Shown piece by piece: positions 11,307-18,192 of a stretch of DNA of 64,000 nucleotides; position 1 is the first letter of the stretch; the number at the start of each line of letters is the position of its first letter. The DNA comes from Cetobacterium sp. NK01 (GTDB lineage: Bacteria; Fusobacteriota; Fusobacteriia; Fusobacteriales; Fusobacteriaceae), in contig NZ_JANIBO010000001.1 in NCBI RefSeq assembly GCF_024506395.1, positions 1,302,001 through 1,366,000 on the forward strand. The letters run 5' to 3'. The position numbers and the translations under genes are program-made. The notes under the pieces are model-generated. The model searched no databases and was not told the origin of the DNA. It saw only the letters and a program-made list of their open reading frames with translations.

Positions 11307-11337
11307 AAAAAAAAAGAGGGATACCCCTCTTTTTTTA
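11307..11337. terminator. Bidirectional intrinsic terminator
   Basis: AAAAAGAGGG / CCCTCTTTTT stem with A and T tracts on both sides lies between convergent genes. Confidence 0.85.
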
Positions 11338-12657
11338 ATAGCTTAAAATTCCGAATTTAACAAGTATCATCGCGATTGAATAGATAATAGGGAATGTTAT
11401 AGCAGTTCTTAAAATAAAGAATTTAGCTACGTCTAATATAGAGAATCCCATCTTAGAGTTAACTAATATCATCCCAGTTTCACTTAAAAATATTAATTGT
11501 GCAAAAGAAAGAGTTCCAACTATAAATCTAGCTACTTCACTAGTTGTATTTTCAATAAATAAAGCAGGTAGATACATATCAGAGAAACCAACAATCATAG
11601 CTGGTGCCATTTGAGATGCAACTTCATGAGTGAATCCAAGCATCTTTAAAATTGGCATTAATGGCATAGAAAGGATATTGAAGAAACTAGTGTTTTCAGC
11701 AATAACTAAACCAATTGAACCAACACACATAATAACTGGAATGAAAGTTATATAGATAACTAAAACTTTAAAAAGAGAGTCTACAATAATCTCTTTTTCA
11801 GAGGCCTTTCCAGCTGTTGTAGTCGCTAAGTGAAGAGCTTCAGCAAAACTTTTAGCTCCGTTGTCATCCACTTTATTTCCATCGTAATATTCATTTTTAA
11901 ACTTTTTTAAAGGTAGTCTAGCAATTATGAAACCAGCAACTATTGTTGAGAAAGCTATAGTTCCATAAAATACCCAGAAAATCTTAGAAAACTTAAGTAA
12001 ATCTGCAACTACTGCAGCAAAAGATATACCAACTATTGAGAACGAAGTTGCAATTATAGCAGCTTCTCTTTGAGTATAGTAACCTTTTTGGTACTGTTGA
12101 TCTGTAACTACAATTCCAATAGTTCCATCTCCAAGGAATGAAGCTAAAGCATCAATAGCAGCATATCCAGGAACTTTGAAAACTTTTCTCATTACAGGAG
12201 CGATTAGTGTCCCAATAAATTCAACTAATCCAAAAGATGTAAGAAGTGGCATTAGCATAACTCCTATGAAGAAAGTAACCATAAGAGGAGGGATCATATC
12301 TCCAGCCATTAAACCACCAGTGTTCTCGTTGCTTAAAAATTCAGGCGCAATTCCAAGTGAGATTAAAATAAACATGAACGAACCACCTATTCTTAAGATA
12401 CCACTTAATTTATCTGTAACGAATAGATCGTTTAAATATTGTTCTTTAAAATTCTTTTTGATGAATCCAAGTATTGTTCCAGAAATTGTAATAACTGAAC
12501 AAAACATTATTAAGAAATTAACCCAGCTTGAAAAATTATTTAGAACAAAGTTTTTTAGGTGACCCATAATAATAGATGATTCACCACCAATTGTAATAGG
12601 AGCTAGAAAAGCTAAAAGTCCCATTAAAGAATAAATACCAAATTTTAGTATTGCCAT
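11335..12657 (-). CDS. YjiH-family membrane protein (nucleoside-recognition/GATE domain)
   Basis: This 440-residue polytopic membrane protein has about ten hydrophobic segments. It matches the YjiH family, which carries the nucleoside-transporter-type GATE domain. Recognisable parts are the N-terminal LAPITIGGESSIIMGHL, ASFLGDGTIGIVVTDQQYQKGYYTQREAAIIATSFS (described by its ends only: ASFLGDGT to AAIIATSFS), and VGFSDMYLPALFIEN. The transported solute is not established for the family. The gene is preceded by a roughly 200-nt leader with an intrinsic terminator just before the ribosome site, so expression is probably set by transcription attenuation. Its gene end overlaps the shared terminator with cfa. 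Confidence 0.8.
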   Translation of the reverse strand: MAILKFGIYSLMGLLAFLAPITIGGESSIIMGHLKNFVLNNFSSWVNFLIMFCSVITISGTILGFIKKNFKEQYLNDLFVTDKLSGILRIGGSFMFILISLGIAPEFLSNENTGGLMAGDMIPPLMVTFFIGVMLMPLLTSFGLVEFIGTLIAPVMRKVFKVPGYAAIDALASFLGDGTIGIVVTDQQYQKGYYTQREAAIIATSFSIVGISFAAVVADLLKFSKIFWVFYGTIAFSTIVAGFIIARLPLKKFKNEYYDGNKVDDNGAKSFAEALHLATTTAGKASEKEIIVDSLFKVLVIYITFIPVIMCVGSIGLVIAENTSFFNILSMPLMPILKMLGFTHEVASQMAPAMIVGFSDMYLPALFIENTTSEVARFIVGTLSFAQLIFLSETGMILVNSKMGFSILDVAKFFILRTAITFPIIYSIAMILVKFGILSY

Positions 12658-12856
12658 TATAAAAACCTCCAGAAATTAAAAAATTTCTGCCAAATAAAAA
12701 AACATACTTAATAAAAAGTATGCCTGAATTGAGAACTTATGTTATTAAGCGTATTACTATGGCAGCTTCGTAATACTTAATTCACAGGAACATGTCGTCA
12801 TCGCCATCGGCCTTAGGCTCAAAACATATAAGTGAACTAACCTCTGTTTAAATTGT
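12658..12856 (-). ncRNA. Structured 5' leader of the YjiH gene, riboswitch candidate
   Basis: Transcription should begin near 12856, downstream of a clear promoter. The leader contains closing arms TTCAC/GTGAA (about 12832/12782), GCCGATGGC, and a stem AAGTATTAC / GTAATACGCTT with a 12-nt loop. It then has an intrinsic terminator (GCATACTT / AAGTATGT plus seven U, about 12695-12724) and a last hairpin CAGAAATT / AATTTCTG that abuts the GGAGG site. The region is richer in G+C than the surrounding intergenic DNA. I tested it by eye against lysine, M-box, SAM, purine, TPP, FMN, cobalamin, yybP-ykoY and T-box patterns and it fits none well. Confidence 0.55.
12695..12724 (-). terminator. Intrinsic terminator inside the YjiH leader
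   Basis: On the minus strand GCATACTT, a 6-nt loop, AAGTATGT and seven T lie upstream of the gene they would control. This is the usual expression platform of attenuation. Confidence 0.7.
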
Positions 12857-12862
12857 CAGTTA

Positions 12863-12891
12863 AGTATACTTGAAATCAAAGGGAATGTAAA
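12863..12891 (-). promoter_or_regulatory. Promoter of the YjiH leader
   Basis: Minus strand TTTACA (12891-12886), 17-bp spacer, TATACT (12868-12863). Confidence 0.65.
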
Positions 12892-13039: not shown

Positions 13040-14860
13040 ATGGGGGAGATTTTAAAAAAACGTATAGAATATTTAACAGGGAAAAATGCACCAGAAGAGG
13101 TTTTAAAAAAACTAGAGCATGAGTGTAAAGATATTTTAAAAGAGTGTAGTGAAAATAGTACATTAATAGATAAAGAGGAGAGTAAAGTTTTAGTTGAAAG
13201 GGTGAGAGATAGTTATAAAAAGATCCTGACTTTAGGAGTTGCTTATAACACAACTAATTCAAAATACTATAGAGATGAAAAAATAGTTGAAATAGCAAAG
13301 GGTGTTTTAGAAAATAACTATGAAAACTACTATAATCTAAACTCTATAGAACATACAAACTGGTGGCAGTGGGAGATTGGGTATCCTTTACTTTTAAATG
13401 ATATCTTAATCCTTTTTAATAAAGAGTTAAAAAAAGAGCTTATAAATAAAATATTAGATGTAACAAAATATTTTTTGCCAGATGAAAATTACCTTGGAAA
13501 TAATCCAGTGGCAATTCATCCTAGTGGAAAACCTTTAAGAAGAGCAACTGGTGGAAATCTAATAGATACAGCAAAGATTCTATTTTTAAGAGGGGTTCTT
13601 TTAAAGGATATGGCTATGTGTCAAAAGGCAGTGGAATCTATGTCTGAAACTTTAGAGATAATAGATGAAAAAAATGTAGAGACAATTAGTAATAGAGATG
13701 GTTTTTATGCAGATGGATCATTCATTCAACATGGATTTATACCATATGCAGGAACTTATGGAAATGTTTTACTTTCAGGGATAGCAGAGATAATATATCT
13801 AGTTAATAAAGAGTTGAGAGAGAAAATAGATACAGGTAAAATTTGTGAAAGAGTTTATGCTTCTTTTGAACCGCTGTTTTTTAAAGGAGCTATGACAGAT
13901 ATAGTCAATGGAAGAGCTATAACAAGAGCTGGTAATGATCATCAAATAGGACATGAGGTTATAAATTCCCTACTACTTTTAGCTGATGGGGTAGAGGAAA
14001 CTGATAGAATAAAACTTTTAGAGATAGCTAAAAGAGAGTTAGCTTTAGATGAGTTTTATTCATATAAGAAGAAGGAGAAAAGAGCGATATTCTACAATTT
14101 ATCTAAAGAGGTTTTAAAGAACTCAAAGATCAAAGTTAAAGATTATTCTAGTGAAGTAAAGTGTTTTAATGAGATGGATAGAGTATTTTATAGAAATAAA
14201 AATTTTGCAATAGGTATAGCTATGCATAGTAAAAATATAGGAACTTTTGAAAGTTTCAATGGTGAAAATACAAGGGGTTGGTTCACTGGAGATGGAGCAG
14301 TTTATATCTATTCTAGAGGAGATGAGTATATAGATTACTGGAAAGGAGTTGATTTTAACTATATTCCAGGAACAACTGAGATAAAAATGGATATGGAAAA
14401 AGTAAAAAATATAGAGAGTACTGTAGATAATATGCCTAAAAATAGTGTGGCAGAAGGATATGGAAATGAGGACTCTGGAGTTGCGTATATGGAGTTTATA
14501 AACTGGAATGGAAAGTTAAAAAGCAGAAAAAACTATATTTTTAAGAAGAGTGGAATGGTTTATTTAGAGAACTATATAACTGGGAAGGGAGAGGTTTATT
14601 CAACAGTTGCTAATATGAGAATATCTAATCTAAAAAACAAAACTGTACGTTTAGATGGAAAGCCAATGGAGGGAGAAAAGGTAACAGGGGAGTTTAAAGA
14701 GATCTCTTTAGGGAATTTAATATATAAATTTTATAAAAGTGAAAAAATAAATTTAGAAGTGTATGGATCAGATGAAAATAAGTTTATAAAAATTTGGATA
14801 GATTTAGGAGAGAATCCGATCAATTATACTATTGCATGGGAAGTGGTAGTTGTAGTATAA
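13040..14860 (+). CDS. Cytoplasmic PL8-family polysaccharide lyase
   Basis: This 606-residue enzyme belongs to polysaccharide lyase family 8 (hyaluronate/chondroitin AC lyases), which cut beta-1,4 bonds to uronic acid by beta-elimination. The conserved WWQWEIG segment is at 108-114. Catalytic residues of the pneumococcal enzyme (Asn349, His399, Tyr408) correspond to N173 in TGGN, H231 in GSFIQH and Y240 in YAGTYG; the His-Tyr spacing of nine is kept. Unlike classical members (700-1000 residues, secreted) it has no signal peptide, so it should act on imported oligosaccharides. It opens the glycosaminoglycan locus, has a shared-motif promoter, and is followed after 30 bp by the AraC-type regulator. 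Confidence 0.88.
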   Translation: MGEILKKRIEYLTGKNAPEEVLKKLEHECKDILKECSENSTLIDKEESKVLVERVRDSYKKILTLGVAYNTTNSKYYRDEKIVEIAKGVLENNYENYYNLNSIEHTNWWQWEIGYPLLLNDILILFNKELKKELINKILDVTKYFLPDENYLGNNPVAIHPSGKPLRRATGGNLIDTAKILFLRGVLLKDMAMCQKAVESMSETLEIIDEKNVETISNRDGFYADGSFIQHGFIPYAGTYGNVLLSGIAEIIYLVNKELREKIDTGKICERVYASFEPLFFKGAMTDIVNGRAITRAGNDHQIGHEVINSLLLLADGVEETDRIKLLEIAKRELALDEFYSYKKKEKRAIFYNLSKEVLKNSKIKVKDYSSEVKCFNEMDRVFYRNKNFAIGIAMHSKNIGTFESFNGENTRGWFTGDGAVYIYSRGDEYIDYWKGVDFNYIPGTTEIKMDMEKVKNIESTVDNMPKNSVAEGYGNEDSGVAYMEFINWNGKLKSRKNYIFKKSGMVYLENYITGKGEVYSTVANMRISNLKNKTVRLDGKPMEGEKVTGEFKEISLGNLIYKFYKSEKINLEVYGSDENKFIKIWIDLGENPINYTIAWEVVVVV

Positions 14861-14890
14861 TAAAATAAAAAGTTTTATAAAAGGGGAATC

Positions 14891-16882
14891 ATGTTAAAAA
14901 AAGAACGTAAAAATGTATTTTTTTATAAAAAAGTCTATGCTTTTTTACTTTTATCTTCAATAATTATATGTTTATTTGGGGTTAGTGAGTATATTTCATA
15001 TAAAAAAGAGGAAGAGTTAAGAGTTGAAAGAGTTTTAAATAAGATAAATTTAAAGATAGAATTAGTAATGTCATCAATAGGTGATTTAGAAAATACTGAA
15101 CCAATAAAAGAGTATTATAACTTAAAAGATGTATCTTATTACAATTTAATTAAAGTTTTACAGGAGATACAAAAAAAGAATAATATATATGGAAAACTTG
15201 GATATAATTTAAGTTTAGGAAAAGATGATTCTGATGTTATAGTTACAGGAAATGGAACAAGAGAGAAAAATGTTCATTTAAAAAAAATAGGGGCTATGAA
15301 AAAAATAGAAACAGATTCTAATTTTCTTTTAATTCCAGGAAAAAAAGAGATAAGTTTTATTTTAAAAAATAAGATTTTTAACTTACAAGAAGGGATATTT
15401 TGGATAGTAACTTTAGATAGAGATCTTTTTTTCTCTGAACTTATAGATGATGAAGAGGGAAGATGGGATATATTAAAAAATGATAAAATATACTATCTAG
15501 ATAAAAATATTGTGGTAAAAAGAAGAGGAAATGAGGGGTATATATTAAGAAGTAGTGGATTAAATTTCAAATTTTTATATACACCGAACTATTCAATTTT
15601 TTATCAGATGTTATTTTTAAAATCAGTTGTTATATTCGTGATTTTAGGTCTACTGTTTTTGCTTATTGATTACTCAATTAAGTTATATAAAGAGAGAAAA
15701 CAGCTTATTGGAGAGATAAATAATTTAGCCGTTGTAGATAGAAGAAAAAACTTAAGAGATTTTGTTTTAGGTATTAAAAAAATTGATGAAGTTGGAGAGT
15801 TGACTAGAAAAGTAAAGGGACTTCAAGGAAGAAAGTTAAAAATTGTATTAGTAGAGATATATGATAGTGATGATGAAGGATTAGACTTTAAGAATTTCAC
15901 TTCAGCTAGAGAGTATCTAAAAGAGAGCTTATCAACAGAGGGTGGATACGAATATATTAACATTGACTATAAAAGTATTGCTTTTATAATTCCAGAAGAG
16001 AGTGACTCTGTTATTGAAGACGCATTTCATTTTATATTGGAAAATATAAGTGTCAAATATGGTGTAGAATTAATAGCTGCTGCTTCTGATGAGTTTGTTT
16101 CTGTAGAAAGTTTCCCTCAAGAGTATATAACTTGTAAAAAGATTTTAGATGCTAAATTTATGGCAAAAGGAAGAAAAGTTTTATTCTCTGAAAATATAAA
16201 AAGTGGAAAATTAATACTTACATATCCAATAGAAACAGAGGCGAAATTAGTATCTAAGTTATTAAATGGAAATCTTCAAGGTGCTAAAAAAATAGTGGAT
16301 GAGATTTTTATAGATAGAATAAATCCTGAGGCTATGGATAAAAAGGATATAAAGGAGTTCACAGGACTTTTATACAACACTTTAAATAGAGTTGTTGTAC
16401 AACTAAAAGAGATTGAAAGTTCACTACATTGTGATGATTTGGATATAGAAAGTATTACAAAAACAGGAGATTTAGATAAAATTAGAAGTATTTTTAATGA
16501 TTTAATATCTGAGATATGTAAACAAAAGAAGAGTAGCGAACAAGATGAAAATGAAGCTATAAGGGATAAGATAAAAAGTTACATAGATAATAATTATCAT
16601 TTGGATTTTTCATTAGATAACTTAGCAGATTATTTAGGTCTTTCTTTTAAATATACAAGTATTTTATTCAAAAAAGTTATGGGAGATAACTTTAAAAACT
16701 ATATAAATGTCTATAGGATAGAAAAAGCAAAAGAGATATTAAAAGAGAAAAAAGACATTAAAATTAAGGACTTAGCAGAAGAATTAGGATATAACAGTTC
16801 TAATACATTTATTAGAATATTCAAGAAATATGAGGGGATATCACCAACACAATTTAATCCTGAGGAGATTTTAGAAAAATAA
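14891..16882 (+). CDS. Membrane-anchored AraC-family transcriptional regulator
   Basis: This 663-residue one-component regulator has a short cytoplasmic start, a membrane helix at about 15-33, a roughly 210-residue outward-facing sensor region, a second helix at about 245-264, a cytoplasmic linker with YesN/GGDEF-like spacing, and a C-terminal double helix-turn-helix of the AraC family (about 565-655: LADYLGLSFKYTSILFKK and LAEELGYNSSNTFIRIFKKY). Such proteins (YesS/YtdP type) usually sense an external sugar or its binding protein and activate nearby uptake genes. Its place between the PL8 and GH88 genes makes it the leading candidate for binding the shared promoter element of the locus. Start ATG follows AAAAGGGG. 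Confidence 0.88.
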   Translation: MLKKERKNVFFYKKVYAFLLLSSIIICLFGVSEYISYKKEEELRVERVLNKINLKIELVMSSIGDLENTEPIKEYYNLKDVSYYNLIKVLQEIQKKNNIYGKLGYNLSLGKDDSDVIVTGNGTREKNVHLKKIGAMKKIETDSNFLLIPGKKEISFILKNKIFNLQEGIFWIVTLDRDLFFSELIDDEEGRWDILKNDKIYYLDKNIVVKRRGNEGYILRSSGLNFKFLYTPNYSIFYQMLFLKSVVIFVILGLLFLLIDYSIKLYKERKQLIGEINNLAVVDRRKNLRDFVLGIKKIDEVGELTRKVKGLQGRKLKIVLVEIYDSDDEGLDFKNFTSAREYLKESLSTEGGYEYINIDYKSIAFIIPEESDSVIEDAFHFILENISVKYGVELIAAASDEFVSVESFPQEYITCKKILDAKFMAKGRKVLFSENIKSGKLILTYPIETEAKLVSKLLNGNLQGAKKIVDEIFIDRINPEAMDKKDIKEFTGLLYNTLNRVVVQLKEIESSLHCDDLDIESITKTGDLDKIRSIFNDLISEICKQKKSSEQDENEAIRDKIKSYIDNNYHLDFSLDNLADYLGLSFKYTSILFKKVMGDNFKNYINVYRIEKAKEILKEKKDIKIKDLAEELGYNSSNTFIRIFKKYEGISPTQFNPEEILEK

Positions 16883-16910
16883 AGCTAAAATGGAATATAA
16901 AATGTAATAT

Positions 16911-16966
16911 AGAAAAAAGATGATACAAAAAAGATGATTTACAACTGAATAAATTCCCATTATAAT
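16911..16966 (+). promoter_or_regulatory. GAG-regulon promoter of the GH88 gene
   Basis: An AGAAAAA box (16911) stands 27 bp before the -35 TTTACA (16938-16943); the -10 TATAAT is at 16961-16966 (17-bp spacer). A 12-bp direct repeat AAAAAAGATGAT with a 14-bp period covers 16913-16938 and touches the -35, as expected for an activator site. Confidence 0.7.
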
Positions 16967-17001
16967 CCACTTAAATTTAAAACTCAAAAGGGGAGATAAA
17001 A

Positions 17002-18192
17002 ATGGAGATATTAAAAAAGACAAGAGAAAAATATTCAGAAGAGTTTAGATTATCAAAAGAGGATCTGTTTTTTGCAATGCATGAAGCTATGAAAAAAATA
17101 GATGAAAATTCAAAGGTATTTATTGATACATATCCAAGAGCTGCAAGTGTGAATAATATATACCCAGGAACAAAGAATGCAGAGGATTTTGACGACTGGA
17201 CAGTGGGGTTCTGGACAGGAATGTTATGGTTATCTTATGAGGTTACAGAAAATGAAAAATATAGAAAAATAGCTGAGTATCAGTTAAAAGGATATAGAAG
17301 TAGAATTGAGAAGAAACTTCACTTAAATCACCATGATATAGGATTTTTATACTCTCTTTCAGCAGTAGCTCAAGAAAGAGTTACTGGAAGTGAATTAGCT
17401 AAAGAGGTTGGAATAAAGGCTGCAGAGCACTTAATTACAAGATTCCAAGAGAAAGGGCAGTTTATACAAGCTTGGGGAGATTTAGGAAAGCCAGAGGATT
17501 ATAGACTTATTATAGATTGTAATATGAATGTACCTTTACTATTTTGGGCAACGGAGATGACTGGAGATAAAAAGTTTGCTGAAATAGGTGCAAAACATTT
17601 AGCTACAGCTTCAAGTGTTGTTGTGAGAGAGGATTCATCAACTCATCACACTTATTACTTCAATCATGAGACAGGAGAGCCTACAAGAGGAGTTACAGCT
17701 CAAGGGTATTCAGACAACTCTGCTTGGGCAAGAGGTCAAGCTTGGGGAGTTTATGGATTCCCATTGGCTTATGGGTACACAAAGGATAAGAGATACATAG
17801 ATCTTTATAAAAGAGTTACAAACTACTTTATAAACAGTTTACCAGAGGATGACGTATGTTACTGGGATCTAGTGTTTACAGACGGTTCTGGGCAGCCTAG
17901 AGACACATCAGCAGCAGCAATAGCTGTTTGTGGAATACTAGAAATGGATAAATATTTAGATGAGAGTGATCCAGATAAAGAGATCTATTTAAATGCAGCT
18001 CATAAGATGATGAAATCTCTTATGAAAAACTATAGTACAAAAGATTTAGATTATTCTAATGGTCTTTTAACAGATGCTGTATACTCAATTCCTCATGGAT
18101 CTGGAGTTAAAGAGTGTAACATTTGGGGAGATTACTATTATTTAGAGGCTCTAACAAGAATCTTTAAACCAGAGTGGAAGAAATACTGGTAG
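17002..18192 (+). CDS. ugl: GH88 unsaturated glucuronyl hydrolase
   Basis: This 396-residue cytoplasmic enzyme removes the 4,5-unsaturated uronic acid from the non-reducing end of lyase products by hydration of the double bond, releasing amino sugar and the keto-deoxy acid precursor. GH88 signatures are DDWTVGFWTGMLW (64-76), NHHDIGFLY (109-117) and IIDCNMNVPLLFW (170-182); D112 and D172 have the spacing of Asp88 and Asp149 of the Bacillus GL1 enzyme. GYSDNSAWARGQAW is also typical. No signal peptide. It has its own regulon promoter and a terminator downstream. GH105 is a less likely alternative. Confidence 0.93.
   Translation: MEILKKTREKYSEEFRLSKEDLFFAMHEAMKKIDENSKVFIDTYPRAASVNNIYPGTKNAEDFDDWTVGFWTGMLWLSYEVTENEKYRKIAEYQLKGYRSRIEKKLHLNHHDIGFLYSLSAVAQERVTGSELAKEVGIKAAEHLITRFQEKGQFIQAWGDLGKPEDYRLIIDCNMNVPLLFWATEMTGDKKFAEIGAKHLATASSVVVREDSSTHHTYYFNHETGEPTRGVTAQGYSDNSAWARGQAWGVYGFPLAYGYTKDKRYIDLYKRVTNYFINSLPEDDVCYWDLVFTDGSGQPRDTSAAAIAVCGILEMDKYLDESDPDKEIYLNAAHKMMKSLMKNYSTKDLDYSNGLLTDAVYSIPHGSGVKECNIWGDYYYLEALTRIFKPEWKKYW

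Follow-up and report, generated by a model that had tools for sequence, protein, structure and literature searches.

A structured leader RNA of Fusobacteriaceae before amino-acid acquisition genes: an unclassified candidate riboswitch, possibly for arginine or a related amino acid

Upstream of a YjiH-family transporter gene of Cetobacterium sp. NK01 lies a conserved structured RNA, accompanied by promoter-like and terminator-like sequences, which is found repeatedly before several families of functionally related genes. The finding is larger than the initial annotation of this DNA held, which concerned the leader of the transporter alone. Our leading interpretation, held with somewhat less than even confidence, is that this unclassified cis-regulatory RNA is most likely a metabolite riboswitch of the Fusobacteriaceae, situated in the leaders of amino-acid acquisition genes. 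Its placement before amino-acid transporters and an arginine-making enzyme suggests L-arginine, or a basic amino acid close to it, as the probable ligand, although there are no ligand data. If true, the RNA would constitute a new riboswitch class and would tie the YjiH transporter family to basic amino-acid uptake. To our knowledge, no bacterial riboswitch for arginine has been validated, and none was found in a literature search. No description of the present RNA was found in the literature either, the coverage of which was incomplete.

Leader of the YjiH-family gene

The window (the whole stretch of DNA that was analysed) comprises 64,000 nucleotides of contig NZ_JANIBO010000001.1, and coordinates without a locus name refer to it. 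The following features were assigned to the leader and to the gene that it is presumed to control.

12863..12891, minus strand: sigma-70 type promoter TTTACA-17-TATACT (10/12 matches), like the promoter before most other copies
12731..12846, minus strand: aptamer-like core, a four-helix junction of P1, P2 (with P3 and P3b), P4 and P5 (refined covariance model, 127.5 bits, E 5.4e-28)
12841..12844, minus strand: P1 5' strand GAGG, pairing with UCUC at 12731-12734 (the 3' strand is also given as UUCUC)
12832..12840, minus strand: P2 5' strand UUAGUUCAC, pairing with GUGAAUUAA at 12777-12785; double changes in 5 of 9 pairs
12803..12820, minus strand: nearly invariant GAGCCUAAGGC region, with P3b (GCC/GGC) and loop L3 UAAGGCCGAU; kept in all copies
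12751..12776, minus strand: P4 hairpin with loop L4 GAAGCUGCCAUA, a possible kissing partner of L3; double changes in 4 of 7 pairs
12736..12749, minus strand: P5 hairpin CUUA..UAAG; double changes in 3 of 4 pairs
About 12696..12725, minus strand: intrinsic terminator GGCATACTTTTTATTAAGTATGTTTTTTT followed by a U tract; hairpin of -8.9 kcal/mol
12666..12689, minus strand: SD-proximal hairpin CAGAAATT/AATTTCTG (also given as CAGAAAUU/AAUUUCUG); -7.1 kcal/mol
11335..12657, minus strand: YjiH-family (Gate domain) membrane transporter, the presumed controlled gene (PF07670, 1.5e-12)

From the sigma-70 type promoter, transcription is predicted to start at about 12856 (minus strand), and a leader of about 200 nt extends between the promoter-like site and the YjiH-family gene. 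The G+C content is 39.7% in the core, compared with 29.5% in the window and 20.9% in the 148 bases upstream. The clear promoter, the structured and G+C-rich leader, the intrinsic terminator before the ribosome site (12724-12696) and the hairpin touching GGAGG (SD at 12666-12670, minus strand), which had been described from the letters alone, were all recovered here. The assignment of the gene to YjiH is likewise supported, both by the Pfam Gate domain and by the Cetobacterium somerae orthologue, which is annotated 'YjiH family protein'. The terminator was missed by a rule-based scan because the scan requires three G-C pairs. The sequence of the SD-proximal hairpin is not common to the copies before other genes.

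The folding energy of the leader is only moderately unusual (z = -1.86, with 8 of 200 shuffles folding equally well); the evidence for the leader RNA rests on comparison, namely on paralogous copies within the genome, a covariance model and covariation. At 13040-18192 of the window is a divergent polysaccharide-degradation cluster with a PL8 (hyaluronate/chondroitin-type) lyase, an AraC-type regulator and a GH88 family hydrolase.

Conserved core and covariation

The core measures 116 nt, with P3 and P3b sitting on the P2 arm of the four-helix junction, and no second core was detected at E<1 when the refined covariance model was run against the whole window. A first alignment, for which no structure model was used, had standard pairs in 98% of pair cells and two-sided changes in 13 pairs; none of 500 shuffles was as good. 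A first covariance model was built from 14 aligned copies. A second alignment, of 30 distinct sequences, was fitted to this model, from which P3b was absent; again 98% of pair cells were paired, now with double changes in 21 pairs, values reached by none of 500 shuffles, and pairing fell to ~35% when the partners were slid by one base. P3b itself is supported by changes from G-C to A-U and G-U among the 30 distinct sequences. The riboswitch criterion of a conserved, complex secondary structure backed by covariation is met.

Bases that hardly vary among the copies (GAGCCUAAGGCYGANRGY and GANGCUGCCAUA) are concentrated in L3, L4 and the internal loop beneath P3b. L3 (UAAGGC) is complementary to L4 (GCCAUA) in all 30 sequences, which suggests a probable kissing contact between the P3b and P4 loops; since the L3-L4 pairs never vary, there is no proof by covariation and the kiss remains an inference. 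L3, L4 and the adjoining internal loop likely form a ligand pocket, for which no ligand-binding data are available.

Two alternative pairings were considered and rejected. A triloop hairpin GCC-UAA-GGC is broken by a G-C to A-U change in one copy (L060), and was replaced by the pairing of GCC with the later GGC; in an extended AUGGC/GCCAU pairing, one position changes without its partner. A shortened copy before yfcC (L032:9468-9584, minus strand) lacks P1 and most of P2 but retains both conserved loops. As this copy is shorter and starts almost at its promoter, the minimal unit may consist of the P3b-P4 part.

Genes behind the RNA

Each of the 29 distinct copies that could be read is followed, 82-138 nt from its L4 loop, by a same-strand start codon, namely that of YjiH1 (8 copies), YjiH2 (8), an NhaC-like protein (6), an AstE-like hydrolase (5), YfcC (1) and argH (1). 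The riboswitch criterion of a 5' leader position before functionally related genes is thus met in 29/29 cases. Profile searches gave 601 bits for argH, and 741 bits for YfcC against the model of a putative basic amino-acid antiporter, while the NhaC-like proteins show weak similarity to ArcD. In Cetobacterium and in another genus, argH comes after NhaC; in one species (G007), nhaC has been lost and the leader abuts argH. Downstream of YjiH2, two species encode an ABC transporter whose binding protein is of the Lys/Arg/Orn type. The presence of the same RNA before several gene families points to basic amino acids. No substrate of the YjiH family is named in the titles and abstracts that were found.

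Distribution

By blastn among relatives, the window leader or diverged copies of it were found in all sampled Cetobacterium genomes; the genome of the window itself has, unexpectedly, three additional diverged copies. Of 98 Fusobacteriota genomes, 17 had matches to the covariance model, 45 in all and up to five copies per genome; the positive genomes comprise 12/12 of the fish-gut genus Cetobacterium and 2/2, 2/7 and 1/3 of those from three further Fusobacteriaceae genera. The refined model recovered the same set; its two extra matches (E 0.4-0.8), from a different family of the order, were taken as chance. An exact-pattern scan of ~85,000 species genomes returned only Cetobacterium and one uncultured Fusobacteriaceae. 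Since other phyla were reached by the exact-pattern scan only, a wider, diverged class cannot be excluded. Divergent versions were also sought before the arginine operons of relatives, and none was found there.

The conservation of the leader in homologues with compensatory changes, on which the initial annotation had staked its reading, was observed; five of the seven YjiH homologues in one genus have no leader and are directly 3' of another gene. The only plasmid matches to the leader are on two C. somerae replicons, and none came from phages. A 0.7-Mb replicon with a plasmid annotation (L163, NZ_CP092520.1, 704,842 bp) carries the YjiH gene and leader of C. somerae, among neighbours that differ from those in the window.

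Comparison with known RNA families

A search of Rfam with the leader at E<=10 returned no relevant family, only chance matches of eukaryotic snoRNA or lncRNA type, in keeping with the earlier claim of a riboswitch-like element of no known class. The whole window gave no match at gathering thresholds, and seven loci with other copies gave only weak, unrelated matches at E<=5. A control showed that the scan can recover such RNAs: it detected a true lysine riboswitch as well as TPP and purine riboswitches in loci of related genomes or of the same genome, including a purine riboswitch at L132:19578-19678.

The lysine riboswitch (L-box, RF00168) is a five-helix junction, unlike the present RNA with its four supported helices, and what we take to be its core sequences are absent from the Cetobacterium leader RNA. 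Its covariance model gave no match in the leader (E<=10) or in the seven loci with other copies (E<=5). The two RNAs are alike in having a multi-helix junction, a possible loop-loop kiss by the junction, a terminator platform and a 5' AGAGG. They are also alike in their amino-acid transporter regulon, as NhaC and YfcC genes are under lysine riboswitches in C. difficile (PMC11477304).

The trpB motif, an orphan riboswitch candidate of Firmicutes and Fusobacteria with >900 members, resembles the present RNA as an orphan Fusobacteria leader that precedes amino-acid transporters and carries a terminator (PMC11109978). However, its published description gives at least two hairpins and an antiterminator in P1 (PMC11109978), as opposed to the four-helix junction of narrow range found here.

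Arginine context

The genome lacks an ArgR C-terminal domain and arcA. Both argG and argH are present, argB is missing and OTC gave a sub-threshold match only, so that only the citrulline-to-arginine steps are seen. In related genera (G071, G014), a YjiH homologue with 45-48% identity is clustered with genes for a polar amino-acid ABC transporter and for binding proteins, with argH, and with argG or argF; short ORFs in which Arg codons abound, such as MLKLRRRRIRRSRTKNNNSYLIQLA, precede the cluster. Thus yjiH and argH, which are joined under apparent Arg attenuation in these genera, are both found behind the present RNA in Cetobacterium.

A bolder proposal, possible but in our estimate doubtful, is that the RNA represents a natural class of bacterial L-arginine riboswitch with a four-helix kissing-loop fold, which replaces ArgR and leader-peptide control in Cetobacterium and marks YjiH as a transporter of basic amino acids (arginine or related). 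The argG operon of Cetobacterium apparently has its own Arg leader peptide, so that arginine would be sensed in two ways, which counts against arginine as the ligand.

Arg-rich short ORFs with terminators occur before argG and YjiH-argH operons of Fusobacteriaceae at L132:11290-11520 (the argG operon, in the same genome as the window), L122:8530-8600 and L124:9390-9480, and look like classical arginine leader-peptide attenuators. The start of the short ORF, MTMR(R/K)xLRT, is kept in six Cetobacterium genomes. In the arginine cluster of the related genera, a dehydrogenase (L122:2748-3854) is encoded between the binding protein and argH; it looks like an opine/octopine dehydrogenase, with no NCBIfam match at E<=1e-8.

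Alternative explanations

The RNA could be the same kind of riboswitch with lysine, ornithine, citrulline or another amino-acid signal as its ligand in place of arginine, which we regard as rather unlikely. Lysine is made possible by the C. difficile regulon described above; moreover, the AstE-like hydrolase resembles diaminobutanoate deacetylase, and in some species YjiH2 adjoins genes for methionine gamma-lyase and 2-oxoacid oxidoreductase, which do not point to arginine. Against such a ligand stand the species in which argH is directly behind the leader and the ordinary lysine riboswitch (RF00168, 105.8 bits; L132:9156-9330, minus strand) that already precedes an aspartokinase-like gene in the same genome.

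That the fold is bound by a regulatory or antiterminator protein, and not by a small molecule, appears improbable. Such binding would accommodate several operons having the same leader, each with a terminator, with no RNA antiterminator found, and a YheO-like regulator is encoded behind YjiH2 in some species. However, no YheO gene is directly behind other copies, including the YjiH2 copy of the species with the argH-abutting leader (G007). Ligand pockets are typically large invariant internal and loop segments combined with a junction, and the present RNA resembles them in this respect.

Sensing of tRNA in the manner of a T-box, or leader-peptide attenuation answering charged tRNA-Arg, seems very improbable. 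The T-box (RF00230) also controls amino-acid genes by attenuation, but Rfam gave no match to it in the leader, the window or the other copies. Arg leader-peptide attenuation in Fusobacteriaceae concerns the same genes (a YjiH homologue and argH), likewise with a terminator before the first gene, and Arg-rich leader peptides precede arginine operons of relatives as well as the argG operon of Cetobacterium. It depends, however, on an Arg-rich ORF, which is absent from the Cetobacterium leader RNA: no short ORF is conserved in the leaders, several of which have no ORF of at least 5 codons, and those of the others disagree. Finally, a promoter-terminator cassette, mobile or duplicated and with no sensory role, would explain several copies per genome with similar promoters and terminators, but is scarcely credible given that the fold is kept by compensatory changes while sequences diverge, and that the copies are found before functionally related genes only, always in the same orientation.

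Proposed mechanism

For a riboswitch with arginine or a basic amino acid close to it as ligand, we hypothesize that direct binding of this ligand, itself inferred, would stabilise the core. The stabilised core would then set the balance between read-through and either the downstream terminator or masking of the ribosome site by the P1 3' strand. With plentiful ligand, expression of the importers and of argH would likely fall; this OFF response is favoured by inference, because the controlled genes look like acquisition genes.

A terminator is present just after P1 in 13/13 leaders examined. The promoter, terminator and SD hairpin of the initially proposed classical attenuation layout were recovered; a classical antiterminator was not found, no consistent antiterminator pairing being common to the leaders examined. 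UUCUC, the 3' strand of P1, is complementary to GGAGG; with P1 prevented from forming, pairing with the SD region was predicted in some leaders only. With a terminator in each leader examined and SD pairing predicted in some, regulation may operate through termination, translation or both.

In most Cetobacterium copies, a segment GGCAG (YjiH1) or GGGGUAG/GGGUAG (NhaC, AstE) is found 3' of the terminator. These segments, which exist in the read-through RNA only, are complementary to CUGCC of loop L4; the segment of the window lies within 12666-12695, and the other copies have matching sites.
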